From: Xestospongia bergquistia | Lineage: Eukaryota > Porifera > Demospongiae > Haplosclerida > Petrosiidae | DNA length: 64,000 nucleotides | Reading direction: 5' to 3' | Assembly (NCBI GenBank): GCA_963965975.1 | Contig: OZ014412.1 | Location: 14,026,849-14,090,848, forward strand | In this document: positions 16,001 to 63,625 of the stretch, piece by piece | Layout: each line of letters starts with the position of its first letter | Numbering within the stretch: the first letter of the stretch is position 1 | Position numbers and translations under genes: made by a program | Notes under the pieces: generated by a model | Database searches by the model: none | The model's input: only the letters and a program-made list of their open reading frames with translations | What the model was told of the DNA's origin: nothing

Positions 16001-16589
16001 GTCTTAGGAATGCATTATGAACATACACGTCCAGTAAATGGACGTGTTAATTTAAGACTATAGGTCCGGCAACTGAATCACAGACGTCGACGTCGACTAA
16101 AAATCTAAAACAACGCCCAATTGACCCAATCAGAAGTACATTATAGTTGCTGCATCATATAACAGATTATACATATGTTGTGTAGGAGACTTTCTTTTCT
16201 ATAATAATATTCAGGCTAAAAATTCAGTTTAGCTATTTGCAGATTTTCTAAACCTCTCGATTTCGCGAGTAGAAGGTTCCAAAAGCGGGTTGAGGGGGCA
16301 ATCAAGGACTTGGACTTGTGCTCTTTTACTCTTCATTTGCTTGAGTTTTGGCGGTCAAAGACTATAAAAGTAATGGTTCTGGCGCCACAACTACTCAAAG
16401 ATGTGATTAGATCACCATCTATTTACTTTTATTCACTCAACACTTCGAAACAACACAGGAAAAATATATTGAATACATTCATTGTTTTTATGTTGTAAAT
16501 ATATGTTGTTTTGTTGTGTAATTACAATTGTAAATATACCAACAAAAATGTACTATGTATTTTTTAGGTGTCGTATATATACATGATAT
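13056..16589. other. AT-rich spacer with a TA microsatellite and a short palindrome
   Basis: No gene is supported. A (TA)n run lies at about 13828-13852. ACACGTCCA / TGGACGTGT forms a 9-bp stem with a 5-nt loop at 16025-16047, shortly before a GACGTCGACGTCGAC stretch (about 16083-16098) that is CpG-rich for this region. A short ORF at 13309-13419 (MHGTLRTYPLSDDEKRKK...) has no recognisable domain. Confidence 0.4.
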
Positions 16590-16912
16590 ATTACGTATTT
16601 TGTACAACGATTGTAACATTGTTGTAATATATACATTATTATATAATACCACTGTTGTTTATACAATGTATATATTACAATCCTTTTACAACAATTGTAA
16701 CATTGGTGTAATATAATACATTATTAATATCACTGTTGTTTATACAATGTATATATTACAATCCTTTTACAACAATTGTAACATTGTTGTAATATATACA
16801 TTGTTAATACCATTGTTGTTTATACAATGTATATATTACAATCTTTTTACAACAATTGTAACATTGTTGTAATATATACATTATTAATACCACTGTCTTT
16901 TATACAATGTAT
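16590..16912. repeat. About four tandem copies of an ~82-bp palindrome-rich unit
   Basis: The core ACAACAATTGTAACATT (first copy ACAACGATTG) begins at 16604, 16687, 16769 and 16849, giving periods of 83, 82 and 80 bp. Each unit alternates TTGTAACATTGTTGTAATATATACATT with TTTATACAATGTATATATTACAA, which are largely self-complementary. The array ends directly at the outer edge of the transposon inverted repeat at 16913. Confidence 0.75.
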
Positions 16913-17330
16913 AGAGTAAATTACACAAGAACGGACGTATCACTTTCGGCCGCATCTAGCAAGATAAACTACCAAGAGAACTGGCATTTCTAGCTTACTG
17001 TTGTAAACTACGACCTGAATAATTAATATAACAAGTGCTTTGAAAGTTTTAGGAAGCTTTTGTGAATAGCGACAAGGTTTTGAAAAAAATTTTCGGAGGC
17101 AGCAGTAAGCGGACAAGTATGATGTAAAATCGTTCAATCGCCAAAATTCCTTCAATAACCAAGCAAAGCGATAAGGCTATGGCTGTTGTTATCAAGTAAC
17201 AATGGAACTACAATAGTATAATCAAACTTTTTAAATCTGCTAACACATCGTTATTTTTCAGAGGAAATTTGCTAAGTAGGTGGGGCTATGATTATTCGAC
17301 CACACTTGCACGTGTCAATAGAAGTCAGAT
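16913..17330. repeat. Left terminal inverted repeat
   Basis: This pairs with 25155-25563. The outermost 80 bp differ at only a few positions. Inner matches include CGGACAAGTATGATGTAAA / CGGACAAGTATCATGTAAA, TTATCAAGTAAC / CTATCAAGTACT and TAAGTAGGTGGGGCT / TGAGTAGGTGTGGCT. Confidence 0.7.
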
Positions 17331-17569
17331 AAGACTACTAAGCGTCATCACAGATATTCTGAAAGGTACGATAAGATTAGATACTCAATAGATTTATTTG
17401 TAGCATGTCACATAGTCTATAATGCTAATACTACTGTATTATAGTGACTTGAGTAATTGGTTCAAGTATAATTGTACTCACCTTGACGTCTCAAATTGTT
17501 GCCTTTGCTTGAGTGACAATTAAAATTAACATTATTTGCCAAAACACCTATTTGGATGTTCATTGTCTC

Positions 17570-18157
17570 TAGTGTTGTTTTAGTTAACTATAACTAATAC
17601 TAAAATATTTTTAGTAGAGAGTAAAAATTTTAGTTAACTATAACTAAAACTATAACTAATATTTTTTTCCAATGTTACTATAACTAAACTAAAATTAAAA
17701 CTTTCTTTTGAACTATAACTAATGCTATATTAAATAACCTCAATTATATTAGTTACTAACCACATAGAATGTGTAAAGCATTTAACATAATTATCATGTT
17801 AGTTAGTGCATACCTGAGTTGTTTGTGGATTTAACCTTCCATGCATGAGTGATTTTCTAGTTATTATAGTTAAGCTTAACTAGAAAGCATGCTTACAGCT
17901 AGTATAGCAGCTGGTCCTGGCAGGCCAAGAAAAAGTGGAGTATGTATCTTCCTGAAGAAAACAAAAGTGTTTGCTTATTAAATATGACTATAACTAATGC
18001 TATAACTAAATTAAATTTCACATTAATACTATAACTAATACTACTAAATTAAAATTAGTATTAATACTATAACTAATACTATAACTAAAAATAAATTTTA
18101 CCTTTTGCTATAGCTAAACTAAAACTAAAACCCCTTATGTCTACTAAAACAACACTA
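17570..18157. mobile_element. hAT-type MITE with 8-bp target duplication
   Basis: The element begins TAGTGTTGTTTTAGT and ends with its reverse complement ACTAAAACAACACTA. It is flanked by a perfect 8-bp duplication, ATTGTCTC, at 17562-17569 and 18158-18165. The TAGTG start and 8-bp duplication are typical of the hAT superfamily. The 588-bp interior has no gene and is rich in ACTATAACTAAT-type motifs. It is nested in the 8.65-kb element. Confidence 0.85.
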
Positions 18158-18165
18158 ATTGTCTC

Positions 18166-19438
18166 CATAAGTATAAAACATCTCATAAGACACCTTGGAG
18201 ATTTTCCTATCTCTTTTACATCCATATTCAAGATATTCATGCACATACCTTCAAAAGAAACATTTTCCATAATAAAATAATTAACTATAACAATGTTCCC
18301 AATACTTTAAAGGAAAACTAGAATAGCCATCTGATAGAGTTGAGGCTAATTAACTTACATATTATTGATGTCTTCTTTCTTATTTGAGATATACCCGATT
18401 GAAGTGCTAAAGTTATTGGCAGTGTTCTCAAGTATGGCAAAACCAACTGGAGAGCTTTATCAGACTTGTAGTTGTGAAGAAACCATAATTTTTATGTTAA
18501 GGACTTTTCACTTTTTGTTGCCATTAGAACCAAAAGTGCAATAGCAAGTTACAGCTTTCATATTAATAGCCTAGGACTTTCCCCATATGACTTTTTAGTA
18601 ATATTTTAACCTTTGTTGTGATGGTGACCAGCACTGACAAGATTACAGCAGGATAACACCATACTCTGCCAAATTTTCAAGGAAGAATATTTGACAAATA
18701 GCTTCTTTGGGAGCATTTGCAAGTGGAAATTTTCAAGAATTTCCTATCGCTCTCATCATAAAATTGTACAATTTATAAGTTTGCAAAATTCCCAAATATT
18801 CTTCAAAAATTTTGCAGTGAATGATGGTTTAGCTTATAATAGTTCTATATCTAAATCTAAGGCCAAATTATAAAAGCATAGGGACTAGCATATATTATGT
18901 CATTGTCATTTGTGGTGTCATTCTATTTGTAAATCCTTGGCAAACCCAATGAGATCTACAAGTGTACATTACTATTTTAAGAACAAAGTGGATGTACCTA
19001 GTCCTTAATGCACTAATGTTGTAATAGCCTCTTGTTAAATAATTTTTGTTCAACTGAAACTTTGTCTACTGCTGCTACACTTAGATTATTACAATCATTT
19101 ATGTTTAGATCAGTCTTCAAATGTTTGATCTGGGCAACCAAGTACATATAGAAGTAAATTTTATAGTGTTACTTATCCTGCATCAACCGACATTATCGCT
19201 ATAATAACTCAAACACATTCTCTATCTGAAAAGGTATTAAGTCTCCAATAGGTCAGTTTCCTTTTGTATTTTCCTTTGATGTTCTTATGCACCTAGTGTC
19301 TCACTTTAACTCAAGTACTCTCTTTCAAACACATTCTCAATATCTCAAGACAGCTAGTAACAAATCTCTGATAGGAAGGTTGTGTATGTTGTTCATCTAT
19401 AATTGACATACTTATCTGTAGTCTTTGTGTTCTATCAA
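18166..19438. other. 5' noncoding part of the pogo element
   Basis: No coding region is supported. The pogo promoter should lie here, but no clear promoter motif was seen. Confidence 0.4.
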
Positions 19439-22400
19439 ATGGCAAGTAAATCACTTCCTCTTAGTGGGCGTGTACTCTATTCATCCAAGTTCACACATGA
19501 TATTCCACAATCTTGCTCTGCTCGACCTCTAAAATATAAAACTTGGACTTCTGAAAAATTAGAACAGGCATGTCAAGCAGTTGAGAGTGGATTGTCTTTG
19601 AGACAGGCAGCAGAAGAGTATCAAATCCCTAAATCTACTATTCAAGATCATGTTTCGGGAAAAGTTTCAAGTGGTAGCAAGAGTGGTCAAAAGTATCTAA
19701 CAGATGAAGAAGAAGAAGAGCTGGTAACATTTTTATTGGAAACTGCAAAAATAGGATTTCCACGTACAAGGAAGGAAGTTATATCAATAGTACAAGCTAC
19801 AGTTGATAGAAAAGGAAGGAATGTGACAGTTTCTAGCGGTTTGTGGGAGGGATTCAGGAAACGACATTCAGAACTTTCTCTCCGAATTACTGAGCAAATT
19901 GCTAACAATCGTGCTTCAGCCTGCTCCCCAGACGTCTTGAGTAATTATTTCGATATTTTAGAGCAAACGATTCAGGAAAACGACCTTGTTTCAAAGCCCA
20001 CCCAATTGTTCAACTGTGATGAAACTGGAATGCCACTAGATCCAAAACCTCCAAAGGATGTGACTGCTAAAGGTGTCAAACATCCAAGAGCAATAACAAC
20101 TGGAAATAAAACACAGATTACAGTTCTTGCATCATGTAATGCTGCTGGATATTGCATACCACCCTTTGTGATATTTGACCGAAAGTTTCTGAAACAAGCA
20201 ATGGTTGATGGAGAAGTCCCCGGGACTATGTATGATCTCTCAGAATCCGGGTGGATCAATAGTGAACTGTTTGATTTATGGTTTGTCCATCATTTTTTGC
20301 CTCATGCCCCAACTGTACGACCAATTCTACTCCTACTCGATGGTCATTCTTCACACTATAATCCTTCAGTAATTAATAAGGCAGCAGAAGAGAAAGTGAT
20401 CATTTTTTGTCTACCCCCACATTCATCACATGAAACCCAGCCTCTGGATAAAGGTCCATTTGGACCATTAAAGTCTTCATGGAGGCAGGTATGCCGAAAG
20501 TTTTTAGTGGATAATCCAGGCAAGGTAGTCACAAGATTCACCTTTTCAAAACTATTTAGTGAGGCATGGGCATGTGCAATGACGATGAAAAATATTCAAG
20601 CTGGATTCAAATATACAGGAATCTACCCCTTGAACAGGGATGCTATTGTTCCATCAAGAAAAGATGCCACAAGCACACTTGCACAGTGCACAAGACTGAA
20701 ATTTATACCACTATATAGCCCTGCACGACGATACAGGCCTCCCATTACTCAAGAAGCTGTATTCACAGAAGAGGAAGAATCAAGATTTCAAAAAAGGTTT
20801 CAAGAAGGTTATGATATTACTTCTGATGATCGTTATAACCAATGGAAAAAAAAGCATCAATCAAGTAATGATGGTAGTGGATTCGTTGATCAAGAGCTTG
20901 ATTTGAGTTCCCAATTCTCCCACAATGACACAGTTGCTAATGATGCCAACACTCGTATGTTTTATCAATACCCACATTACCCACCAGATTCTAGATACCC
21001 ATATTTCCCACAAGACACTCTTCCATACTTTCCATTTTTTGTGCCAGCATTTGATCCTCGTTTTCAAAGTTGTCCTTTCACTGCGAGTGCTGAAAGTAAT
21101 ACATATCCTTTTGTCTGTCATCCTCCTGAACAACCTTTGCAATCTGCAGTTCTTCAAAAATCATCCATTTTTTCAAAGATTTTAGAAGAAGAAAGATCAT
21201 TACCCTTTTGTAAGCTTCCAGTTATACCACAAAAGAAGTCTGGAAAAGTCTTAACAAGTGCAGAGAATCGTATGGCAATTGAAGAAAAAGAGAAAAGGAA
21301 ATTAGAAGAAATGAGAAGGAAGGAAGAAAAAAAAGAAAAAAGAAGTAAGTATATACATAGATACTGCAACTTACACATTCTTACTTTGATTAGATCAAGC
21401 TAGGATAGCTCAGTTAAAAAAAAGTGAGAATGACATACCCAAATTTTGATTCCTCAATATTGTTATAGAAAGTTCTTGCTCTAAAAAGTCCTGTACTGGT
21501 TCAGCCCCTATTAGCAGTTCTCAATCTACATCAAACGATCCCACTGAAGGTAGGTATTTGCATAATTTCATCTTAAGTCTAGCACCTTTTCAACCAGTAT
21601 CAATGATGGTACTGTTATATTATACTGTGGTTATAGGTTGCTCATTGTTTACAATGTCTGAAGAACTATAGAACAGTTTAAATGAAGGTATAGTGTTAAT
21701 TTATTGAATTAGTTTATATACCACATCAGGTGCTGCAGGTATCTCCAAGTCTCCAATAGGTTAGTTTGTCTGTTATCCTCTATATTATCCATTGGTATAA
21801 TAATCTAGCCTCTAGTATTCAATCTCGGACACATTCTCGGTCTCAAACGTCAACCACTGTCAAGTCTCCAATAGGTCAGTTTGTCTGTTATCTTTATAAT
21901 TATTCATTGTTATAATAATCTAGCCTCTAGTACTCAATCTCAGACACGTTCTCGGTCTCAAAAGACAACCACTGTCAAGTCTCCTATAGGTCGGTTTGTC
22001 TATTATCTTTTCTATTATTCATTGTTATAATAATCTAGCCTCTAGTACTAGGTTAGGGACATATTCTCAGTCTCAAAAGGTAACCAATGTCAAGTCTCCA
22101 ATAGGTCAGTTTGTCTGTTATCTTTTCTATTATTCATTGTTATAATAATCTAGCCTCTAGTACTCAATCTCAGACACGTTCTTGGTCTCAAAAGGCAACC
22201 TCTATCAAGTCTCCAATAGGTCAGTTTTTCTGTTATCTTTTTTGTTATTCATTGTTATAATAATGTAGCCTCTAGTACTCAATCTCAGACACGTTCTCGG
22301 TCTCAAAAGACAACCACTGTCAAGTCTCCTATAGGTCAGTTTGTCTGTTATCTTTTCTATTATTCATTGTTATAATAATCTAGCCTCTAGTACTAGGTTA

Positions 22401-23839
22401 GGGACATGTTCTCAGTCTCAAAAGACAACCACTGTCAAGTCTCCTATAGGTCAGTTTGTCCGTTATCTTTTCTATTATTCATTGTTATAATAATCTAGCC
22501 TCTAGTACTCAATCTCAGACACGTTCTTGGTCTCAAAAGGCAACCTCTATCAAGTCTCCAATAGGTCAGTTTTTTCTGTTATCTTTTTTGTTATTCATTG
22601 TTATAATAATGTAGCCTCTAGTACTCAATCTCAGACACGTTCTCGGTCTCAAAAGACAACCACTGTCAAGTCTCCTATAGGTCAGTTTGTCTGTTATCTT
22701 TTCTATTATTCATTGTTATAATAATCTAGCCTCTAGTACTAGGTTAGGGACATGTTCTCAGTCTCAAAAGACAACCACTGTCAAGTCTCCTATAGGTCAG
22801 TTTGTCCGTTATCTTTTCTATTATTCATTGTTATAATAATCTAGCCTCTAGTACTAGGTTAGGGACATGTACTCAGTCTCAAAAGACAACCACTGTCAAG
22901 TCTCCTATAGGTCAGTTTGTCTGTTATCTTTTCTATTATTCATTGTTATAATAATCTAGCCTCTAGTACTAGGTTAGGGACATGTACTCAGTCTCAAAAG
23001 ACAACCACTGTCAAGTCTCCTATAGGTCAGTTTGTCTGTTATCTTTTCTATTATTCATTGTTATAATAATCTAGCCTCTAGTACTAGGTTAGGGACATGT
23101 TCTCAGTCTCAAAAGACAACCACTGTCAAGTCTCCTATAGGTCAGTTTGTCCGTTATCTTTTCTATTATTCATTGTTATAATAATCTAGCCTCTAGTACT
23201 AGGTTAGGGACATGTTCTCAGTCTCAAAAGACAACCACTGTCAAGTCTCCTATAGGTCAGTTTGTCTGTTATCTTTTCTATTATTCATTGTTATAATAAT
23301 CTAGCCTCTAGTACTCAATCTCAGACACATTCTCAGTCTCAAAAGACAACCACTGTCAAATCTTCTATAGGTCAGTTTGTCTATTTCTTTTATATTATTC
23401 ATTGTTATAATAATATAGCCTCTGGCACTCAATCTCGGAAACTTTCTCAGTCTCAAAAGGCAACCTCTGTCAAGTCTTCAATAGGTCAGTTTATCTGTTA
23501 TCTTTTATATTATTTATAGTTATGATAATCTAGCCCCGAGTACTCAGTCTCTGACACATTCTCAGTTTCAGACAAGTTCTGAATTTCAAAAGACAACCAT
23601 TGTTGAGTCTCCAATAGGTATTTATAACACATATATTGCTCACTTGCAATAATATTTAATGTAGAAAAGTACTGCATTTGCAGCAGGAGGAGTTTGGCAG
23701 AATGATTTATTGTGACAATGCAAATTGCTCAATTGGCTGGTGGCATTTTGAATGTGCTAATCTTAAGAGAAAACCAAGAGGGACTTGGTATTGTTCTCTA
23801 TGTGATAATGTATCGAAACTAGATGAACCAAACTCGTGA
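19439..23839 (+). CDS. Pogo/Tigger transposase with micro-exon repeat region and C-terminal PHD finger
   Basis: The large first exon (19439-21344, about 635 aa) has a psq/CENP-B-type helix-turn-helix (LEQACQAVESGLSLRQAAEEYQ, then GLWEGFRKRHSELSLR) and a DDE domain. Its catalytic aspartates are in NCDETG, LLLDGHSSH and QPLDKGPFG. A proline/tyrosine-rich stretch and a charged EEKEKRKLEEMRRKE tail follow. Spliced exons are inferred at 21469-21549 (81 nt), 21730-21759 (30 nt), fifteen 66-nt exons, one 84-nt exon (23534-23617) and a last exon at 23665-23839. All junctions are phase 1. The last exon encodes a PHD finger (YCIC, then CDNANC, HFEC, WYCSLC), but one base is missing between YCICSR and EFGRMIYC. 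I chose the ATG at 19439; an upstream in-frame ATG at 19403 adds 12 hydrophobic residues. It acts in the nucleus on its own ends; it is probably inactive here if the frameshift is real. Confidence 0.75.
21809..23617 (+). repeat. 115-bp tandem array, each unit one micro-exon plus one intron
   Basis: Sixteen units start at 21809, 21924, 22039, 22154, 22269, 22384, 22499, 22615, 22730, 22845, 22960, 23075, 23190, 23305, 23419 and 23534. Each has a 66-nt open segment (last unit 84 nt) ending ATAG, followed by a GTCAGT-like donor, a 48-50 bp intron with stops, and a TCTAG-type acceptor. The exons are phase 1-1 and encode about 22 residues in two versions: SSTQSQTRSRSQKTTTVKSP (A) and SSTRLGTCSQSQKTTTVKSP (B). 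The order is AAB AAB AAB BBBB AAA, so a 345-bp higher-order unit is visible. Confidence 0.85.
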
Positions 23840-24219
23840 TTGTCATTTAATAAACTTTCAATTGACCACCTGAAAAACTGAGTATATACATGTTACCATA
23901 TATCCTTGCATAATGTAACACCTTGTCAGTGGTCATTGAACCTTTTAACAGCCTTTACTTTATTATAATATACATTACCTACCTATATGTGTTAGTGAAT
24001 AATCATGGCCACACCTATTCAGCTGATTTCCTGAACAACAACTTGTTTTCAGATAATAAAGTTTTAATTGTATGACTTTTATAGTTCACATATTACTTGA
24101 TAAAAATAGCCATAGCTTATGACTGTAGGCAATATATTTAGATTATGAGACTATTATAAATAGATCAATCAATAATAATAATGGATAAGACAAAAATTAC
24201 CTATACGAGGAACTTATTA

Positions 24220-24999
24220 TACCATGTCCGAGTTGAGAAGAGCCCTTCATTAAAAAAAAGGTGTTTTATGCATGGAATGTAAGGTGAGGAATTTCCTTCC
24301 CTATTAAACACAATTAGCGCTGAAGCACATTTTAATTATATTCATTATTTGTTCACGTGAATGTCATGCGAACAGACCACGTTTTCTCTCGTGTTTGTGA
24401 ACATGCCAACTGGAAAGAGATTGAGAGCGCAAACAAAGGAGGTTGTTGTGAATGTCTATGGATATTTTGAGGAACTTGGCAGGCGTAAACGGACTGAAGG
24501 AGGACTGGAGGTGAATCGGATGAGTCTGATGATTCCAATCAGTCTGATAGTTCCGATGACGATTAGTTGTAGGCATTCTCAGTCTTCTTTCTTCGTCGAA
24601 AGGTTTTTTCAAAACCATGGTGGCTTTATAGCTGTCTCAAATCATAAAAGATGATACCTGGTTATTATTTTAATAATAATTGTTATAATATACCATTTGT
24701 TTATATAATTAGAATTGTAATTTTGAATTGCCACGTGATAGATGGCTGACTTCTCAAAGCGAAAATTGTTTTTTATTAAACCCTCGAAGGTGTGCAATTC
24801 GAAGTATGTGAAAGGTATGCCATTGAAAATGTATGGAGTTTTCTAGTTTGGTACTTTCTCGTAGTGCTAGAGAGCCAAATTTTATATATAAAATGCGCAT
24901 TTGCAAGATAAATCGATTGTGCAAGTTTCATGTCAATAGCACGTAAAACGGCGAAGTTATTCACATGTCTGGGTGGGCCCTCTCAACTCGGACATGGTA
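24220..24999. mobile_element. Tc1/mariner-type nonautonomous element with transposase N-terminal remnant
   Basis: The ends are TACCATGTCCGAGTTGAGA at 24220 and its reverse complement ending at 24999, each flanked by TA. The interior holds a plus-strand remnant from 24403 (MPTGKRLRAQTKEVVVNVYG). It resembles the N-terminal helix-turn-helix start of IS630/Tc1-like transposases, which suggests a deletion derivative of an autonomous element. It lies between the pogo stop codon and the right TIR. Confidence 0.7.
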
Positions 25000-25154
25000 T
25001 AGTAATCAGCCATTATCAGGTATTATTCAGAATTTGAAAAATTAGTAAATATAATTTCGTTATGAATAGATTGCAGTTACAGATAGTGAAACACAATAAG
25101 TTCTGAACCAATAATTCAGTAATCATTTAAAAGCAATCACATCTAAATGCGTGC

Positions 25155-25563
25155 CCAGAAAAGCACCTTCAAGCGTGGACGTTTTTATCAGCCACACCTA
25201 CTCAACTAATTTTTGTCGAGAAACTCTCATCAGTCAACAGAAAGTAGAACTTTGAGTATACTGTTGTAGCTCAGTCAGTACTTGATAGCAACGACCATAG
25301 TTCTCTTGCTCAGCTTTGTTCTTCAAGGAGTTTGAGGAACTGGATGAATTTACATGATACTTGTCCGCCCACCCATGCTTCCGAATTTTTTTTTGAAAAG
25401 ACTGTCGCTGCTCAGAGGAGCTTTCTGAATCTTTTATAATTCCTTAAATGTGTTTGATAACAGCGAAATTCATTTCAGTATTTTAGAAATGCCAATTCTC
25501 TTGGTAGTTTATCCTGCTAGATACGGCCGAAAGTGATATGTCCGTTCTTGTGTAATTTACTCT
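25155..25563. repeat. Right terminal inverted repeat
   Basis: Reverse complement of the left TIR at 16913-17330. It ends in ...GTGTAATTTACTCT at 25563. Confidence 0.7.
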
Positions 25564-26220
25564 CTATATATAATAATTGTAAAACGTTAATATCATGGTA
25601 TCATTGAGTCATTTAATATCTTCAATTTTAATTTTTTAAAATAAGTCAAATAGCAAAAATAAGAATAGTTTGAAAATTCACTAAAATCAAAATACAAAGA
25701 AAAATAATGCCTTCACAAAAATACATTTGTAGCAAAGAATGAGTAATAATCATTAATAATGTTACTATTGCTAAGAAAAATAGAATTATCTATTATCTAA
25801 AAAAAGAGAGAAACATCTTATAATATTTAGTTGATTATAAACAAAATGTGTGTAAACAAAATATCAGATGCATTGTATAGATTTTAAGTTGTTTCTGCAT
25901 ATGTATAATAATACAGTATGTTATTTGAAAACATTATCTATTGTTTTCAATCAAATTAATTAATTTTGTAAATTAATAAGCTTGTGATTACTACTGAGCC
26001 ATATCCAATTAACTTAGTGAAATTAGGCGCAAAATGCTGAACCATGAATGTTAATTATGATATGAGTGTACAAATTAGTTCATATTACAGCTTATGCTCT
26101 TTACATACAAATATAAATTGGACTTCATTCATGTGACTAGTTACTAGTATGACTACATGTAAGATACAAGTCATTGAAGAGAATATTTCACTTTTAATTC
26201 TAATTATAGTCTTTATCTCA
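25564..26220. other. AT-rich spacer, no gene seen
   Basis: No ORF or repeat that could be supported. Confidence 0.5.
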
Positions 26221-52920: not shown

Positions 52921-54034
52921 AGGAAGAAAGTTCAAAATATATTCAGACCACCAGCCACTCAAATATTTATTCAGTGAAACCTGTCCGATACCAGTGATGG
53001 CTGTATCGAGGATTCAACGTTGGTCACTACTCCTCAGTTCTTATGAATATGAGATTGAATATTGACCAGGATCCAAAGTAGCAAATGCTGATGCTCTCAG
53101 TAGACTCCCTTTACCAGAGACCCCACCCGAGTCAAGTAAAGATGGATCGGTAGAACTACTCATTCATCAACTCTCAGAAAGTAATTGTCACTGCTAATCA
53201 AATAAAGAATTGGACAGAAAAGGATCCAATCTTATCTCGAGTTCATCATTTTGTATTACACAGATGGCCAAACATTGTTGACAATGAAGATCTCAAGCCA
53301 TACTTTAACTGTCGAGATGAACTCAGCATCGTCAAAGGGTGTGTCTTGTGGGGATCACGAGTAATCATACCTACACCTGCTCAGTCACTAGTGTTGAATC
53401 AACTACATGACACTCATCCTGGAGTCAGTCAAATGAAGAGTCTTAGTCGTTCATACGTCTGGTGACCAGATATAGACAGTGATATTGTGAAGAGAGTGAG
53501 AGGATGTAATATGTGTCAAATGAATAGACCTTCTCCTAGTAAAGCTCATCTCCACCCATGGGAGTATCCCTCTAGACCTTGGGTGTGGATACACATTGAC
53601 CATGCTGGTCCCTTCATGGGAAAAATGTTTTTAGTGGTCATAGATTTTCAGAAGAGTCACAAACTACATTATTAACTCAAGAGGATTGGTCAATAATAGA
53701 TACCACACGTCAAGGAAGACCTCAACCTAATCAGGTAGAAGTTTCAGAAGCTCAAGAAAATCGTGTGGAACCAACAGAGCCTACCCAATCAACACCTGCG
53801 TTCACCAGTTACAAGATCAAGTCGAAAACAAAAACCGCCTGAAACATTTGCTCCACCCATTCGAACTTAAAAACTTAAAAAGAGGGAAAATGTGGTAACG
53901 TAAATAAACCTATGATGTAATGTTTATATATTGTCATGTAAATTCAGTTTTGTTCAGTCTACAGTTGTTGAGTTATTGTTCTTTTAAATATATATGTTGT
54001 ATTGGCAAGCTTGGTCACTAGTAGAATTACAACA
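52921..54034 (+). mobile_element. Ty3/gypsy fragment: RNase H end, integrase part and 3' LTR
   Basis: The fragment is nearly identical to the 3' half of the larger element downstream. It starts within RNase H, has the ANADALSRLP linker, the integrase zinc-binding part (MKRVRGCNMCQMNRP) and HIDHAGPFMG. It then jumps from the first catalytic-aspartate region straight to the 3' noncoding part (deletion equivalent to about 62750-63355). The LTR is 53891-54034. A TGA at 53063-53065 is shared with the other copies. It is inactive. Confidence 0.8.
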
Positions 54035-54164
54035 TAGTTACCTTGTATGATTGGTATTATAATATCAAAAAAGGCTCTATTTTGCATTTTCCTTTTGAAA
54101 TTATTTCCCAAAATGTAACATCCCAAAAATCTGGAAGAAATGATTTCAAGAAAACACTTTTCGG
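54035..54164 (-). pseudogene. Duplicated piggyBac fragment with the same gypsy insertion junction
   Basis: Starting with TAGTT right after the LTR, this 130-bp segment is almost identical to 63794-63923. On the minus strand it encodes the same piggyBac piece (RAFFDIIIPIIQGNY). Similarity stops at ...CTTTTCGG in both places. Confidence 0.75.
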
Positions 54165-54505
54165 ACCACGCCTATTTAATTAACATAAAACCACAGGAAT
54201 TATGTGAGAGCAAGTAAAAAATGGTTGTTTATTGAGGAAGAAGACAAGTATATATACGCTTGAATTTCACTCTTCTCAAGTAGATGAGTTGCTTTAGGCT
54301 GTCTACCAGAACGATGTGTTTGTTGTTCTGACCTATTAGACCATTACTTTGGATACTTGAAAGCGCCTGCTGTCCATAGCAACGTGTAAAGGTTAGTAGT
54401 TTTGTACGTTCTTTTACTTATATAATGAAATGAATATGTGATAAATGAAGAACTATGATTGATGAGTATCTGTTAGGTGTGATATTTTCTAAAACACTCC
54501 TGTGG
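54165..54505. other. Probable 3' end region of the piggyBac element, noncoding
   Basis: No ORF. A TTAATTAA stretch at about 54176 could mark the outer end of the piggyBac copy whose coding part lies upstream on the minus strand, but no matching terminal repeat was identified. Confidence 0.3.
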
Positions 54506-55543
54506 TCACAACGCTGGATTCTCTGGACAAGTCTGACAGACAAACAATGTTAGGTCGTGTTCTTCACTTTTATCACTACAGACAACACAATCTCTCCTCT
54601 TTGTTCTCTTTTCCAAGTAATGAACACCCTTTGGATTCTTGGTAGCAGTAGCAGAGACTGATGGTGTGACAGAAAGTGATACTTCTCTCTCTTCAAGTAA
54701 TGGTTCAACAAGACATTGAATAAAGATAAGACATTCTGTGTGTGTTACCTTTGTTAGTGTCTTGATATAATTATAATATATACATTCACAACAACCACTT
54801 CTAGCATTTAAAAGAATACTTTTTTCCACTATCTTATGGGCTTGTATAAAAAGAGTAATATGCCATTAACTGGTCAAGCTTGTCTCCAAGTATATAATAA
54901 TTGTACTCATGTATGTCCAGTAGTTTCTCTTTTGTAGAATCTGTTGACCTTATATTGATATAGAATATTAAACCATTATTGTACATATTATCATTATAAT
55001 AATTACATAGAGTTACCATTGTCATTTTACCTGGGTTGTATTTCTATCATCTTGTTATTGTATTTTGTTGAACACATTAGAATTGTTCTCTTATCTTGCC
55101 ATGCTAAAGCCATCATATTACCACATATGTAGCTTTCAGTTGTACTCTTTGGTATTTTTTATTTTCTTTTGATTTCTACAGGCAATCCTCGTTTGTTTGA
55201 TAAAACAGTACCTAATTCCCATTTGTTCCGATGTGTCAGGTAGAAGAGGACTAGTGTAAAATTGATCAGTGTAAAGATCATAGCCTTTGTCCCTGAGATG
55301 ATCTGTCAAGGTTGTAACAAATTTGACTGTATATGATGCTTCAGGATTGTCAATTAGGTTAGTATCCATTCTGTAGTATAAATGTAAGTTGTGCATGTAA
55401 CCTGTTTTACTATTGGACAGAACATAATATCCTTTTAGTCCCGATGGGTTCAGTTTTCCTTTCAAATACTGACGAAATGTTACTATTCCCTTGAATGAAA
55501 TGACAGATTCATCTACAGCAATTTGTCTGTCTGGATTATAGTT
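54506..55543 (-). pseudogene. piggyBac transposase, C-terminal two thirds, relic
   Basis: The minus strand reads NPDRQIAVDESVISFKG at the insertion edge, then YYVLSNSKTGYMHNLHLYYR, TVKFVTTLTDHLRDKGYDLY then TDQFYTSPLL, MALAWQDKRTILMCSTKYNN, ILGDKLDQLMAYYSF and a C-terminal cysteine cluster (RRDCVVCSD...LFVCQTCPENPAL). These carry the three expected aspartates (VDES, YTDQF, KLDQL). GT/AG-like introns or frame breaks separate them. The 5' part lies at 63794-63963, on the other side of the gypsy composite, which inserted inside the coding sequence at GNY/NPD. Confidence 0.75.
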
Positions 55544-55700
55544 TGCGGTAACTTAAATAACCCTACGATGTAATGTTTATATAAATGTTCTGGAACTGCA
55601 CTATATATTGTCATGTAAATTCAGTTTTGTTCAGTTGTTGAGTTATTGTTCTTTTATATATGTTGTATTGGTAAGCTGGGTCACTAGTAGAATTACAACA
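55544..55700 (+). repeat. LTR 1 of composite
   Basis: Starts TGCGGTAAC (TGTGGTAAC in the others) and ends TTACAACA. It is about 11 bp shorter than the other two because of small deletions. Confidence 0.9.
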
Positions 55701-55701
55701 T

Positions 55702-55717
55702 ATTTGGCAACGAGAGG
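55702..55717 (+). other. Probable tRNA primer binding site
   Basis: ATTTGGCAACGAGAGG lies one base after the LTR. The second internal copy has TTTGGCGACGAGAGG at the same place. The TGGCGACGAG form is usual next to LTRs in this gypsy group. Confidence 0.6.
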
Positions 55718-55725
55718 TAAAAGAG

Positions 55726-56530
55726 ATGGCAGCGCTTATCAGTGGACTATTGGAACCATTCGACCTGTCAAAGTACAATGTTACAAGATATATACAACAT
55801 TTCAAACTATTCATGAAGGCCAATGACATCCCAGAGGAAAGGAAGAAGTCAGTCTTTCTCACAGCCATTGGCTACGACTCATACGAAATTCTGGCAAACA
55901 TTTTCGAGAAACTGGAGCAAGAGACTCTCGAGACACTCGAAGCTGAACTAGAGAAGCATTTCAACTCCAAGTCTTCAGTTATAGCAGAGCGGTACAAATT
56001 TGGTCGACACCAGAAAGAGTCAGAAAGTATACCAGATTTCGTTCCAGGCTTACGTAAGTTGGCAGCACACTGCAACGATGCCATCTAACGATGCCACTGA
56101 AGGCATCGTTAGATGAAACTCTTCGTGACAAATTCGTGTGTGGTCTACAGCACGAATATATCAGAAGTCGTCTACTTACAGAGGAAGATAATCTTATCTT
56201 TGATCGATCAGTTGAGATAGCTACAGGATTAGAAGGTGCCAAGAAGCAATGCAGCAAGAAACTAAGAAAGAAGAAGACCATCGCACTACAAGACGACATA
56301 ATACATTCAACCCAAGGTCATCCACCATTGTATGTTTTTGTTGTGCAGGTCCGCACGTGGCGTGGGCATCCGGTTCATCAAAGAAAAATGCCCAATTGCG
56401 GCAACACTTTTCACATCTCTAAGGTGTGTCGGAGCCTTACCACAAAGTCTCAGAAGTCTAAAGGAAGACCAGCAAAGGGCCTGGAATCTGTAAACAAGGA
56501 GGAATCATCACCTCTGGAAGAACTCACTCC
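55726..56530 (+). pseudogene. Gag of internal copy 1, frameshifted
   Basis: Starts MAALISGLLEPFDLSKYN and continues through a capsid-like helical region (VFLTAIGYDSYEILANIF, ERYKFGRHQKESESIPDF). At 56082-56115 a 14-bp perfect hairpin has been created, and it moves the frame and adds a stop. The capsid C-terminal part follows in another frame, and a CCHC zinc knuckle survives as CPNCGNTFHISKVC (about 56390-56435). The knuckle should bind element RNA. The copy cannot make intact Gag. Confidence 0.75.
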
Positions 56531-56559
56531 AGAAGAATCTAATAATTTATTTATGATTT

Positions 56560-59293
56560 ATTCTTTTTCCTCTAGGTCTGATCCAATCAAGCTAGCCATG
56601 GAAGTAAACGGTCACAAGTTAGACATTGAGTTGGACACAGGTGCTTCAGTCTCCGTCATTAGTGAAGACACGTTCAATTCAGGGCTGTCCTCCTCAGTTC
56701 AGCTCCGCCCTAGTAATCCATCTCTCACTTCGTATTCAGGGCCCTTGTAAGAAGTGCTAGGAAATGCAAACGTCAAGGTTAAATACCAGACACAAACAGT
56801 CACACTTCCAATTTTTGTAATCAAGGGCAAAGGCGTGAGTTTGTTCGGTTGTAACTAGCTGAAGAGGATCAAACTGGACTGGCAGATTGTCAAAAGCTTT
56901 CGTATCAACTCACCATTGGATGAAGTCATTGAGAAATATTCTCGTCTTTTCAGATCCGAGCAAGGGAAGTTGAAGGGTATGGAAGCCAAAATCTGTGTCC
57001 CCAGCAATGCTCAACCTCGTTATTTTAAACCTCACCCAGTCCCCTACTCGTTACGTGACAAGGTAGATCGAGAACTAGAAAGTCTACTTAAAGCTGGAGT
57101 TATCTCACCAGTTCAATTTTCTGATTGGGCTACCTCAATTGTACCAGTTGTCAAGTCAGATGGGAGTATACGTATTTGTGGAGATTATAAGGTGACAGTC
57201 TATGCAGTCTCCAAACTAGAAGAGTATCCTCTTCCCTGTGTGGAAGATCTATTTGCAGCCCTTTCTGGAGGAAAGGTATTCTCTAAACTAGACCTTTCTC
57301 ATGCTTATCAACAAATTGTACTAGAAGAGGATTCCAAAAAGTTTACTATCATTAACACTCAGAAGGGTTTATTTCAGTTCGAACGACTTCCTTTTGGTAT
57401 CTCTTCCGCCCCTGCCATTTTTCAACGAACAATAGAGAGTTTGTTGCAAGGGTTACCAGGGGTGGTTGCATATATTGATGACATTTTAGTAACCGGAAAA
57501 AGCCAACAGGAGCACCTTGAGAACCTGACAAGTGTACTGAATTGTTTAGAAGAGGCTGGAGTAACATTGAAGAGACACAAATGTACATTCGCTGCACCGT
57601 CAGTTGAATACATAGGTCACGTTATCGATCAAGAGGGTTTGCATCCATCAGAGGAGAAAGTCAGAGCAACTAAACAAGCCCCACGTCCTCCAAATGTGAC
57701 AGAATTAAAGTCATTTTTAGGTTTGCTCAATTATTACTCTAAATTCTTGCCTCACTTATCTACTCTTTTGCTCCACTGTATCATTTACTTAGGAAAGATG
57801 GAAACTGGTCCAGTAAGAAGTTGCAAGAAGATGCATTTAATAAAGCCAAGCAGTTGCTTCAATCATCCACACTCCTCATGCATTATGATTGTCAGAAGGA
57901 GATCATACTTTTGTGTGATGCTTCACAGAATGGCTTAGGAGCAGTTTTAGCTCATAAGATGGATGACGGATCAGAGAAACCAATTGCATTCATTTCTAGA
58001 ACTCTCTTACCAGCTGAGAAGAAGAACTCGCAACTAGAAAAAGAAGGCCTAGCAATTTTTTTTCGCTGTGAAGAAACTACACCAATACTTATCAGGAAGA
58101 AAGTTCAAAATATATTCAGACCACCAACCAATCAAATATTTATTCAGTGAAACCTGTCCGATACCAGTGATGGCTGTATCGAGGATTCAACGTTGGTCAC
58201 TACTTCTCAGTTCTTATGAATATGAGATTGAATATTGACCAGGATCCAAAGTAGCAAATGCTGATGCTCTCAGTAGACTCCCTTTACCAGAGACCACACC
58301 CGAGTCAAGTAAAGATGGATCGGTAGAACTACTCATTCATCAACTCTCAGAAGTAATTGTCACTTCTAATCAAATAAAGAATTGGACAGAAAAGGATCCA
58401 ATCTTATCTCTATTTTTTTTGTTTTGTATTATACAGATGGCCAAACATTGTTGACAATGAAGATCTCAAGCCATATCTTAACCGTCGAGATGAACTCAGC
58501 ATCGTCAAACGGTGTGTCTTGTGGGGATCATGAATAATCATACCTCCACCTGGTAAGTCACTGGTGTTGAATCAACTACATGATACTCATCTTGGAGTCA
58601 GTCAAACGAAGAGCCTTAGTCGTTCATATGTCTGGTGGCTAGATATAGACAGTGATATTATGAAGAGAGTGAGAGGATGTAATATGTGTCAAATGAATAA
58701 ACCTTCTCCTAGTAAAGTTTCTCTCCACCCATGGGAGTATCCCTCTAGACCTTGGGCGCGGATACACATTGACCATGCTGGTCCCTTCATGGGCAAATTG
58801 TTTTTTAGTGGTCAGAGACGCTCATTCCAAATGGATTGATGTTGAAATAGTGAACTCTACTTCTGCCGTGAGCACCATTATTAAACTTTGTTAATTATTT
58901 GCTACACACGGCATACCAGAACAGTTGATGTCAGATAACGGATCAGGTTTTCGAAGCGAGGACTTCAAGCAATTCACAACTCAGAATGGTATTAAACACA
59001 TATTCACATCACCCTACCATCCCTCCTCCAATGGACTTGCTGAAAGGGCAGTTCAAACTTTCAAGAGTACAGTTGTTAAAATGGATGGTCCAATTGATGT
59101 ACGTTTATCTAGATTTTTACTTCAGTATAGGGTAACATCCCAGACTACTACTGGACTTTCCCCGTCTCAACTCCTAATGGGGAGGAAGATAAGAACATCT
59201 TTAGATGCACTACATCCTATTATGTCAGAAGATGTCGAGAAGAAACAGGAGAAACTCATCTCTGGCAAGGAACCTCGAAAGTTTAAACTTTAA
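56560..59293 (+). pseudogene. Pol of internal copy 1: protease, RT, RNase H, integrase
   Basis: The aspartic protease has DTGASVSVIS (about 56635). RT (ORF 56916-57938) has the conserved blocks CGDYKVTVYAVSKLEEYPLP, FSKLDLSHAYQQI, LPFGISSAPAIFQR and an intact YIDD. RNase H has [12 protein letters not shown]. Integrase has the zinc-binding H/H and CNMC, HIDHAGPF, and DNGSGF...SSNGLAERAVQ. Defects seen are TAG where NWLK should be (about 56855), a frameshift after the RT near 57770, TGA at 58236-58238, a TGA at 58530, a frameshift in the integrase core, and a deletion joining the integrase end to the 3' tail near 59290. Confidence 0.8.
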
Positions 59294-59478
59294 GTTTAAA
59301 GGAAGACCTCAACCTAATCAGGTAGAAGTTTCAGAAGCTCAAGAAGATCGTATGGAACCAACAGAGCCTACTCAATTAACACATGAAAATCGAACACCGT
59401 AGTGCGTTCACCAGTTACAAGATCACGTCGAAAACAAAAACCACCTGAAACATTTGCTCCACTCATTCGAACTTAAAA

Positions 59479-59497
59479 AACTTAAAAAGGGGGAAAA
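59479..59497 (+). other. Polypurine tract before the middle LTR
   Basis: AAACTTAAAAAGGGGGAAAA directly precedes TGTGGTAAC. The equivalent lies at about 63605-63625 before the last LTR. Confidence 0.65.
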
Positions 59498-59665
59498 TGT
59501 GGTAACTTAAATAAACCTATGATGTAATGTTTATATAAATGTTCTGGAACTGCACTATATATTGTCATGTAAATTCAGTTTTGTTCAGTCTACAGTTGTT
59601 GAGTTATTGTTCTTTTAAATATATATGTTGTATTGGTAAGCTCGGTCACTAGTAGAATTACAACA
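59498..59665 (+). repeat. LTR 2 of composite (shared)
   Basis: 168 bp, TG...CA. It serves as 3' LTR of internal copy 1 and 5' LTR of internal copy 2. No target duplication surrounds it. Confidence 0.9.
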
Positions 59666-59690
59666 TATTTGGCGACGAGAGGTAAAAGAG

Positions 59691-60425
59691 ATGGCAGCGC
59701 TTATCAGTGGACTATTGGAACTGTTCGACCCGTCAAAATATATACAACATTTCGAACAATTCGTGAAGGCCAATGACATCCCAGAGGAGAGGAAGAAGTC
59801 AGTCTTTCTCACAGCCATTGGCTACGACTCATACGAAGTTCTGGCAAACTTTTTCAAAAAACCGGAGCAAGAGACTCTCAAGACACTCAAAGCTGAACTA
59901 GAGAAGCATTTCAACTCCAAGTCTTCGGTTATAGCAGAGCGGTACAAATTTGGTTGTCGACACCAGAAAGAGTCGGAAAGTATAGCAGATTTTGCTGCAG
60001 GCTTATGTAAGTTTGCAGCACGCTGCAACTTAAAGAAGGCATTGTTAGATGAAGCTCTTCGTAACAAATTCATGTGTGGTCTACAGCATGAATGTAGCAA
60101 AAGTCGTCTACTTACAGAGGAAGATAATCTTACCTTCAATCGATCAGTCGAGATAGCTACAGGATTAGAAGGTGCCAAGAAGCATGCTCACTTAATGCAG
60201 CAAGAAATTAAGAAAGAAGAAGACAATACGATACATTCAACCCAAGGTCATCCACTATTGTATGTTTTCATTGTTGAGGTCTGCACGCGGAGCAGGCGTG
60301 CTGGTTCATCAAAGAATAATGCCACAACTGCGGCAAGACTGGCGACATGTTTAAGGTGTGTGAGAGCCCTACCACAAAGTCTCAGAAGTCTAAAGGAAGA
60401 GCAGCAAAGGGCCTGGACTCTGTAA
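59691..60425 (+). pseudogene. Gag of internal copy 2
   Basis: Starts MAALISGLLELFDPSKYIQH and stays open through the whole capsid-like region (244 codons), including ALLDEALRNKFMCGLQHE. A frameshift before the zinc knuckle puts it into the next frame, as CHNCGKTGDMFKVC, where the usual histidine is Asp. This is the better preserved gag, but its knuckle is probably non-functional. Confidence 0.75.
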
Positions 60426-60429
60426 ACAA

Positions 60430-63270
60430 AGAGAAGTCATCACCTCTGGAAGAACTCACTCCAGAAGAATCTAATAATTTATTTATGATTTATTCTTTTT
60501 CCTCTAGGTCTGATCCAATCAAGCTAGCCGTGGAAGTAAACGGTCACAAGTTAGACATGGAGTTTGACACAGGTGCTTCAGTCTCCGTCATTAGTGAATA
60601 CATGTTCAATTCAGGGCTGTCCTCCTTAGTTCAGCTCCGCCCTAGTAATGCATCTCTCACTTCGTATTCAGGGCACTCGTTAGAAGTGCTTGGAAGTGCA
60701 AACAACAAGGTTAAATACCAGACACAAACAGTCACACTTTCAATTTTTGTAATCAAGGGCAAAGGCGTGAGTTTTTTCGGTCGTAACTGGCTGAAGAGGA
60801 TCAAACTGGACTGGCAGATTATCAAAAGCTTTCATATCAACTCACCATTGGACGAAGTCATTGAGAAACATTCTTGTCTTTTCAGATCCGAGCTAGGGAA
60901 GTTGAAGGGTATGTAAGCCAAAATCTGTGTCCCCAGCAATGCTCAACCTCGTTATTTTAAACCTCACCCAGTCCCCTACTCGTTACGTGACAAGGTAGAT
61001 CGAGAACTAGAATGTCTACTCAAAGATGGAGTTATCTCACCAGTTTAAGTTTCTGATTGGGCTACCCCAATCGTACCAGTTGTCAAGTCAGATGGGAGTA
61101 TACGTATTTGTGGATATTATAAGGTGACATTCAATACAATCTCCAAACTAGAAGAGTATCCTCTTCCCCGAGTGGAAAATTTATTCGCAGCCCTTTCTGG
61201 AGGAAAGGTATTCTCTAAACTAGACCTTTCTCATCCTTATCAACAAATTGTACTAGAAGAGGATTCCAAAAAGTTTACTATCATTAACACTCAGAAGGGT
61301 TTATTTCAGTTCAAACGACTTCCTTTTGGTATCTCTTCCGCCCCTACCATTTTTCAATGAACAATTGAGAGTTTGTTGCAAGGGTTACCAGGAGTGGTTG
61401 CATATATTGATAACATTTTTGTAACCGGAAAAAGCCAACAGGAGCACCTTGAGAACCTGACAAGTGTACTGAATTGTTTAGAAGAGGCTGGAGTAACATT
61501 GAAGAGACACAAATGTACATTTGCTGCACCGTCAGTTGAATACCTAGGTCACGTTATCGATCAAGAGGGTTTGCATCCATCAGAGGAGAAAGTCAGAGCA
61601 ATTAAACAAGCCCCACGTCCTCCAAATGTGACAGAATTAAAGTGATTTTTAGGTTTGCTCAATTATGAATTATTACTCTAAATTCTTGCCTCACTCATCT
61701 ACTCTTTTGTCTTCACTGTATCATTTACTTAGGAAATATGGAAACTGGTCCTGTAAGAAGTTGCAAGAAGATGCATTTAATAACGCCAAGCAGTTGCTTC
61801 AATCATCCACACTCCTCATGCATTATGATTGTCAGGAAGGAGATCATACTTTCGTGTGATGCTTCACAGTATGGTTTAGGAGCAGTTTTAGCTCATAAGA
61901 TGGATAATAGATCAGAGAAACCAATTGCATTTTACTCTCTCACCAGCTGAGATGAAGTACACACAATTAAAAAAAGAAGACCTAGCAATTATTTTCGCTG
62001 TGAAGAAACTACACCAATACTTATCAGGAAGAAAGTTCAAAATATATTCAGACCACCAACCACTCAAAAATGTATTCAGTAAAACCCGTCTGATACCAGT
62101 GATGGCTGCAACAAGGATTCAACGTTGGTCACTACTCCTCTGTTCTTATGAATATGAGATTAAATATTGACCAGGATCCAAAGTAGCAAATGCTGATGCT
62201 CTCAGTAGACTCCCTTTACCAGAGACCACACCTGAGTCAAGTAAAGATGGATCGGTAGAACTACTCATTCATCAACTCTCAGAAGTAATTGTCACTGCTA
62301 ATCAAATAAAGAATTGGACAAAAAAGGATCCAATCTTATCTCGAGTTCATTGTTTTGTGTTACACGAATGGCCAAACATTGTTGACAATGAAGATCTCAA
62401 GCCATACTTTAACTGTTGAGATGAACTCGGCATCATCAAAGGGTGTGTCTTGTGGGGATCACGAGTAATCATACCTCCACCTGGTCAGTCACTGGTGTTG
62501 AATCAACTACATGATACTCATCTTGGAGTCAGTCAAATGAAAAGCCTTAGTCGTTCATATGTCTGGTGGCCAGGTATTGACAGTGATATTGTGAAGAGAG
62601 TGAGATGATGTAATATGTTTCAAATGAATAGACCTTCTCCTAGTAAAGCTTCTCTCCTCCCATGGGAGTATCCCTCTAGACCTTGGGCGCGGATACACAT
62701 TGACCATGCTGGTCCCGTAATGGGCAAAATGTTTTTAGTGGTCATAGACGCTTATTCCAAATGGATTGATGTTGAAATACTGAACTCTACTTCTGCCGTG
62801 AGCACCATTATTAAACTTCGTTCATTATTTGCTACACACGGCATACCAGAATAGTTGGTGTCAGATAATGGTCAGGTTTTCGAAGCGAGGAATTCAAGCA
62901 ATTCACAACTCAGAATGGTATTAAACACATATTCACATCACCTTACCATCCCTCCTCCAATGGACTTGCTGAAAGGGCAGTTCAAACTTTCAAGAGTACA
63001 GTTGTTAAAATGGATGGTCCAATTAATGTACGTTTATCTAGATTTTTACTTCAGTATAGGGTAACACCCCAGACTACTACTGGACTTTCCCCGTCTCAAC
63101 TCCTATTAGGGAGGAAGATAAGAACATGTTTAGATGCACTACATCCTGATATGTCAGAAGATGTCGAGAAGAAACAGGAGAAACTCATCTCTGGCAAGGA
63201 ACCTCGAAAGTTTAAACTGGATGATCTGTTGTTTGCAAAAAAAAACATAGATTTATGTGGATACTGGTGA
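60430..63270 (+). pseudogene. Pol of internal copy 2: protease, RT, RNase H, integrase
   Basis: The protease has DTGASVSVIS, and GRNWLKRIKLDW is intact here. RT begins after a TAA following LKGM (60914-60916). Further defects are a TAA near 61047, a TGA near 61359, YIDN instead of YIDD in the active site (about 61407) and a TGA near 61643. RNase H has [12 protein letters not shown] and IYSDHQPLKNVF. TGA at 62168-62170 is shared with the other copies. Integrase has another TGA inside the zinc-binding region (near 62606) and TAG near 62852, then DNGQVF in a shifted frame and a C-terminal part to 63270. Confidence 0.8.
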
Positions 63271-63625
63271 AGGTAACTAAAATAATGGACCTTTATCGTA
63301 TGAAGTTACAACTGAAAGTGGCATGACTTTATGACGTCATGTTGACCATCTTCAAAGATTTTCAGAAAAGTCACAAACTACATTATCAACTCAAGAGGAT
63401 TGGTCAATAATAGATACCACACCTCAAGGAAGACCTCAACTTAATCAGGTAGAAGTTTCAGAAGCTGAAGAAGATCGTGTGGAACCAACAGAGCATACTC
63501 AATCAACACCTGAAAATCCAACACCAGTAGTGCATTCACAAGTTAGAAGATGAAGTCTAAAACGAAAACCGCCTGAAACATTTGCTCCACTCATTCGAAC
63601 TTAAAAAAATTAAAAAGGGGGAAAA

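Follow-up and report, generated by a model that had tools for sequence, protein, structure and literature searches.

The window, the whole stretch of 64,000 nucleotides from the sponge Xestospongia bergquistia that was analyzed here, contains a minisatellite at positions 21809..23617 (plus strand) whose repeat unit looks like an exon together with its intron, and it lies within a transposase gene. This raises the question of whether such a repeat is a genuine part of the gene, and if so, how a coding sequence can change its length by whole exons and what the encoded protein might gain from it. The initial annotation had described 16 head-to-tail units, and their coordinates, lengths, phase, and openness were all reproduced by tandem-repeat calling (TRF: 15.9 copies, period 115, score 2717) and by reading the splice borders. 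Taken as acceptor-to-donor segments, 15 of the exons measure 66 nt and the last 84 nt, all of them open and in phase 1-1, and they alternate with 15 GT-AG introns of 48–50 nt (13 of 49 nt, one of 48, and one of 50). The donors have the proposed GTCAGT/GTATTT forms save for one, GTCGGT after the exon at 21924-21989, while the AABAABAAB order suggested for the two exon versions extends over units 1–9 only and gives way to BBBB and then AAA. A KSPI ending, previously attributed to both exons upstream of the array, is found in exon 3 but not in exon 2, which ends in DPTE; within the array, two units end in KSSI and the last one in ESPI.

Starting from an ATG at 19439, the gene was modeled with 20 exons, and all 19 introns had GT-AG splice sites at the modeled borders and were in phase 1. 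The main exon (19439..21344, plus strand) encodes the transposase followed by a charged tail, leaves the frame in phase 1 at its 3′ border, and includes both a psq-type helix-turn-helix and a catalytic domain (HTH_psq, 1.9e-09, and DDE_1, 8.7e-22, in the domain search). The motifs CDETG, LLDGHSSH, and QPLDKG, which we take to mark the three catalytic aspartates, could be located, the last two aspartates being separated by 35 residues (counted by hand); in pogo-like transposons this spacing is about 30–35. Two further plus-strand exons in phase 1-1, exon 2 of 81 nt (21469..21549) and exon 3 of 30 nt (21730..21759), where the match to the unit model starts, lead into the array, and a PHD-finger exon (23665..23842, plus strand), ING-like in the copies that read through it, follows. 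The frame stays open over 1043 codons and breaks in this last exon, 13 codons from its start, so that the fit of the next exon claimed earlier is right for its acceptor phase but is not sustained in the window copy. Since the aligned PHD stretch has 225 bp here, whereas the eight closest of 37 PHD-exon matches have 226 bp, and since 13 of 30 scored PHD loci (L009-L038) read through to a full ending, this frame loss looks like a defect of the window copy, which is probably dead. The full endings comprise twelve of 58 aa, three of them from the near-identical copies L011-L013, and one of 63 aa; three loci end early (the window after 13 codons, L018 after 47, and L028 after 26), and 14 have no acceptor recognized by the pattern used.

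By its sequence, the element hosting the array is a pogo-like (Tc1/mariner) cut-and-paste DNA transposon of ~8.6 kb (16914..25562, plus strand; hereafter subfamily A), delimited by terminal inverted repeats (TIRs), by the shared ends of genome matches, and by TA flanks. The left TIR lies at 16914..17000 (plus strand) and the right one at 25476..25562 (minus strand), the arms 16900-17000 and 25476-25576 being 88% complementary; 12 genome matches start at 16902-16912, 20 matches starting near 25000 stop at 25550-25578, and TA flanks were read at both ends in copies of subfamilies A and B. Searching the organism's own assembly (146 Mb, 21 contigs) yielded 74 transposase matches, some copies being split into several, and the elements are dispersed and have recently moved, with ten copies of subfamily B differing by a median of 0.54%. 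An insertion of ~780 bp with inverted ends (24219-25000) is absent from 22 of 29 subfamily A loci, namely those in which the two flanking sequences aligned directly next to each other; visual inspection showed similar sequence in L073 and L075, two of the more distant elements described below. A group of three near-identical copies (L011-L013) spaced ~40 kb apart on contig C2 (15.99-16.08 Mb) points to a segmental triplication.

Comparing unit number across related pogo copies, as the initial annotation had proposed, revealed extensive variation. Array exons in subfamily A number 2 (L028), 6, 8, 10, 16, and up to ~49, and at one PHD locus (L036) no unit was seen. Beside the array, the window copy is 98.8% identical to a segmental duplicate of it (L010/L041), yet the two have 16 and 8 exons, which agrees with the frame-safe change in unit number by unequal exchange that had been suggested; one exon of the duplicate contains a stop. 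Among ten B copies no more than 0.82% apart in the DDE exon, the 54- and 60-nt exons of the first eight units occur in four different orders, the commonest shared by seven copies. The largest array (~49 exons in 5.5 kb; contig C1, 17598204-17603758; L003-L006) lies inside a broken copy, which indicates that array growth is a DNA-level process. In one stretch of it, a frameshift affects 10 of 41 full units, and because the frameshifted units have themselves been amplified, expansion evidently continues without coding. On contig C9 (5417459-5422876; L076), a diverged unit forms an array of 5 kb that is degenerate in the 1 kb that was read: 5 of 10 exon parts have a length not divisible by three (one of these five is truncated where the locus ends), and several contain stops. 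Among the matches listed, none to a transposase or a PHD finger lay beside this array.

An exon-plus-intron array occupies the same slot in five further subfamilies with ~50–70% identical transposases, where the unit sequences are different and a PHD-like exon again follows. Across the six subfamilies with an array (A, B, C1, C2, C3, and C4), units measure 102–248 bp and introns 43–55 nt, and this recurrence argues that the layout is more than chance. Subfamily B (~67–70% identical transposase) includes ten full-length uninterrupted frames, and its array alternates exons of 54 or 60 nt with introns of 49 nt. Two B copies were modeled whole, each with 17 exons, 10 of them unit exons, and 16 of 16 introns GT-AG and in phase 1, and their spliced frames are open for 955 and 957 codons into the PHD-like end. 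Distant matches at 47–55% identity comprise 34 genes, and the downstream sequence was examined for five of them (L071-L075), all five of which contain arrays. These include 20 exons of 57 or 81 nt with introns of 43 or 45 nt in C1 (L071); a 248-bp unit of two exons (87–99 and 51 nt) with introns of 52 and 55 nt in C2 (L072); two units, one degenerate, in a relative of C2 (L075); 12 exons of 57, 60, or 48 nt with introns of 46–49 nt in C3 (L073), where one acceptor is CA instead of AG; and nine exons of 60, 66, or 69 nt with introns of 50 nt in C4 (L074). In L071 and L072, the array ends in an exon that is linked in phase 1 to a PHD-like exon with an open frame; in the PHD-like exons of L073 and L074, a frameshift and a nonsense codon were seen by eye. 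A 24-nt in-frame repeat inside the exon distinguishes the 57- and 81-nt versions of L071, a second, nested route to a longer linker.

The unit peptides of the six subfamilies do not align with one another. Of 45 pairs of unit peptides, shuffling gave p < 0.02 in four: two of these set a 5′ exon against its own family's unit, and the others were B–C4 (0.018) and C4–Amphimedon (0.003). Unit-like exons upstream of the transposase exon (19208-19374 in the window; 1392-1445 in oriented L046) resemble their own family's unit in both A and B, as if units had been exchanged across the main exon. In the window, such an exon of 78 nt (19297..19374, plus strand; borders by eye) encodes a peptide resembling the array unit (shuffle p 0.001), and its donor is GA vs. 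GT in nine other aligned copies.

We then evaluated the constraint acting on the units. In a comparison of one example copy per subfamily and twelve loci for B, exon lengths differed from the commonest by 18, 6, 24, 3, 9, 3, 9, 6, and 9 nt, i.e., by multiples of three in 9 of 9 cases, vs. 1 of 6 for the introns (1, 1, 2, 3, 2, and 1 nt; both counted by hand). Unit exons extracted by border patterns from example copies of the six subfamilies, a procedure which overlooks units with altered borders (L049, L057), included no in-frame stop, while base-shuffled unit exons stay open with a probability of 0.10–0.38 each. Related elements, which were to be inspected for stops in the exon part, are thus open in these examples, but decayed copies are broken. 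Of 231 subfamily A units, 25 had a stop in the coding frame vs. 114–228 in the other five frames, although these counts are non-independent because the units share common descent; 28 of 32 exon indels in the same units were not multiples of three, largely from decayed copies, and units broken by a frameshift or stop amounted to 0 of 15 full units in the window vs. 25 of 211 over all A copies. Summed by hand, the changes among units comprised 119 nonsynonymous and 30 synonymous types, where 107.8 and 38.3 were expected; nonsynonymous changes were absent from C2b alone, which has two variants, and third codon positions were the most variable in one of six arrays. The transposase exon itself displayed a dN/dS of 0.125 between A and B, with dS at 1.5 and hence near saturation. 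Since amino acid changes among units are no rarer than expected, selection shows only on the frame, and because the frame is kept while the unit sequence is free, the linker encoded by the array probably acts as a spacer. The exon/intron diversity ratio was above 1 in A (1.27–3.12), in both B arrays (1.85–4.04 and 1.69–3.57), and in C4 (1.10–5.66), and not above 1 in C1 (0.71–1.10) and C3 (0.19–1.37). Splicing of the array introns is predicted from their borders; no spliced retrocopies of A or B were found by exon–exon junction patterns, which is weak evidence either way.

Given this anatomy, its recurrence in six subfamilies, the continuity of the frame, and the fast turnover of units, we consider it very probable that the array is a series of tandem coding micro-exons in the transposase gene of a pogo-like transposon, which changes by unequal exchange or slippage of whole periods and encodes a length-tolerant spacer. 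Each 115-bp period would pair a symmetrical (phase 1-1) exon with an intron of minimal size; for every whole period exchanged or slipped, 22 codons and the full intron accompanying them would be gained or lost, which leaves the gene in frame and spliceable after a change in unit number. The resulting peptide would form a low-complexity, S/T-rich, neutral-to-basic, and presumably disordered linker from the catalytic domain to the C-terminal PHD finger, and tolerance of its length may let the transposase contact DNA and the PHD finger bind a histone tail at the same time. A non-coding array of subterminal or regulatory repeats, e.g., transposase-binding sites with open frames arising by chance, would fit the degenerate array L076; however, exon lengths in multiples of three, phase 1 with both neighbors, frames open into the PHD exon in separate subfamilies, and a homologous named protein in Amphimedon (P0036) make it highly improbable. 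We rejected this reading on the frame evidence (the open frame into the PHD exon, the lengths, and the whole-gene models), and the same frame continuity over whole genes, together with the multiple-of-three exon lengths in six subfamilies, upholds the coding exon-plus-intron unit originally suggested.

The array may also be a pure by-product, i.e., a minisatellite in a length-tolerant stretch, where copies with a broken frame die out and unit number has no effect. The biggest array belongs to a copy that is itself broken and has multiplied its frameshifted units, and the unit amino acids give no sign of constraint; both observations fit this possibility, which we consider a serious one while rating it short of an even chance: six subfamilies with an array in the same slot and non-aligning unit peptides are much for an accident, although a single ancestral array with turnover would also lead to such recurrence. 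The lower diversity of introns relative to exons in A, B, and C4 does not follow from the linker reading alone. These ratios above 1, along with the drift of unit amino acids, could instead reflect selection for the introns, whose load may raise expression or make the element resemble a host gene to a surveillance directed at intronless transcripts, of which the mammalian HUSH system is an example, the exons needing only to stay open. In the available part of the source, HUSH is described as repressing long intronless transgenes, with introns counteracting this repression (PMC8770142). Selection for introns nonetheless appears quite unlikely, as the ratio is not above 1 in C1 and C3, short introns packed with splice signals, or homogenization, would produce the same conservation, and tandem exon genes outside transposons also show conserved introns in the excerpt at hand (PMC2576457). 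A search for DUF3715, a HUSH subunit domain, returned no match, its controls being equally silent. Beyond the coding micro-exon spacer that we favor, it is conceivable, if rather doubtful, that this lineage repeatedly evolved a frame-safe, self-lengthening gene kept for linker reach, isoform number, or intron load (silencing escape), with the PHD exon also differing between subfamilies.

The C-terminal fingers have different closest relatives, the peptide of A (from L010) being closest to ING proteins (9.7e-17), that of B to BPTF and KDM5B (7.6e-5), and that of C1 to ALFIN-like proteins (1.3e-5) and MLL5 (1.3e-4). Several of these proteins are H3K4me3 readers. With the Pfam PHD model, peptides of B and C2 scored above the cut-off and those of A and C1 below it. 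Unit peptides consist of 40–64% S/T/G/N/Q and have a net charge of 0 to +4. Among the best protein relatives, those bearing an organism name were from the sponges Amphimedon queenslandica and Dysidea avara, plus one filed under an Iophon symbiont; this last entry (P0111) is a sponge-type transposase in a bacterial symbiont genome of the sponge Iophon, probably through host contamination. The Amphimedon protein P0036 combines psq-DDE, a linker with about four repeats (by eye), and a PHD whose score of 17.9 is below the Pfam cut-off of 24. Used as queries, the tail of P0036 found itself alone, and the whole protein retrieved no further named Amphimedon protein among the 120 matches listed.

Elements of the Pogo/Tigger family carry HTH_psq and DDE_1 domains, TIRs, and TA flanks. 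The sponge element resembles these DDE_1 transposons in all of these features and in its aspartate spacing of 35, and differs from the known ones in its PHD-finger end and micro-exon array; neither feature was found for a Pogo/Tigger element among the literature matches listed (titles and starts of abstracts), nor was an exon-plus-intron array in any transposase gene. The closest parallels are host genes, here compared on the basis of article excerpts. In the polymorphic mucins of Schistosoma mansoni (SmPoMuc), a 27-bp exon and its flanking introns are tandemly repeated in at most ~20 units per gene, with a variable repeat number and >94% identity in the intronic part (PMC2576457). The sponge arrays likewise repeat an exon with its intron in variable number, at borders predicted here from sequence; but SmPoMuc units are ~1 kb long and belong to host genes for secreted mucins, whereas the sponge units measure 102–248 bp and sit in a transposase gene in several subfamilies. 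The same excerpt describes exon-plus-intron arrays in spider silk genes, again with introns more homogenized than exons (PMC2576457). In piccolo b of teleosts, a zinc-finger exon was amplified 8–16 times, likely by unequal crossover and more than once independently (PMC3484663), yet there each exon encodes a folded domain of a host protein, unlike the low-complexity linker of a mobile element. Schistosome micro-exon genes, also host genes, share the runs of very short exons, but their introns range from 100 to almost 5000 bp (PMC10526429) vs. 43–55 nt here. Introners are introns of nearly the same sequence that have entered many unrelated genes; they and intron gain by tandem duplication, as far as the excerpts go, likewise multiply introns by duplication, while in the sponge, each copying event at the single array site takes along an exon as well as its intron. 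Tandem exon arrays were thus already known in a few host genes; the case described here adds a coding, frame-safe exon-plus-intron minisatellite in a transposon, recurrent in one genome.

With dozens of copies in six subfamilies and units of minisatellite size, these elements form a large set of naturally replicated exon duplications in sequences that have hardly diverged, from which the pace at which exons are gained and lost, selection on the frame, intron conservation, and splicing of the arrays become directly measurable. They also suggest a transposase tethered to chromatin-reader fingers via a linker of freely changing length, an arrangement loosely analogous to the PHD finger of RAG2. 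The plasmid collection yielded no match. Around the transposon, an 80/161-bp tandem repeat (16569-16913) adjoins its left end, and further along the window, translations identified by eye point to Ty3/gypsy-like retroelement copies with interrupted frames (53000-63300) and to a minus-strand fragment resembling piggyBac near 55136-55552.
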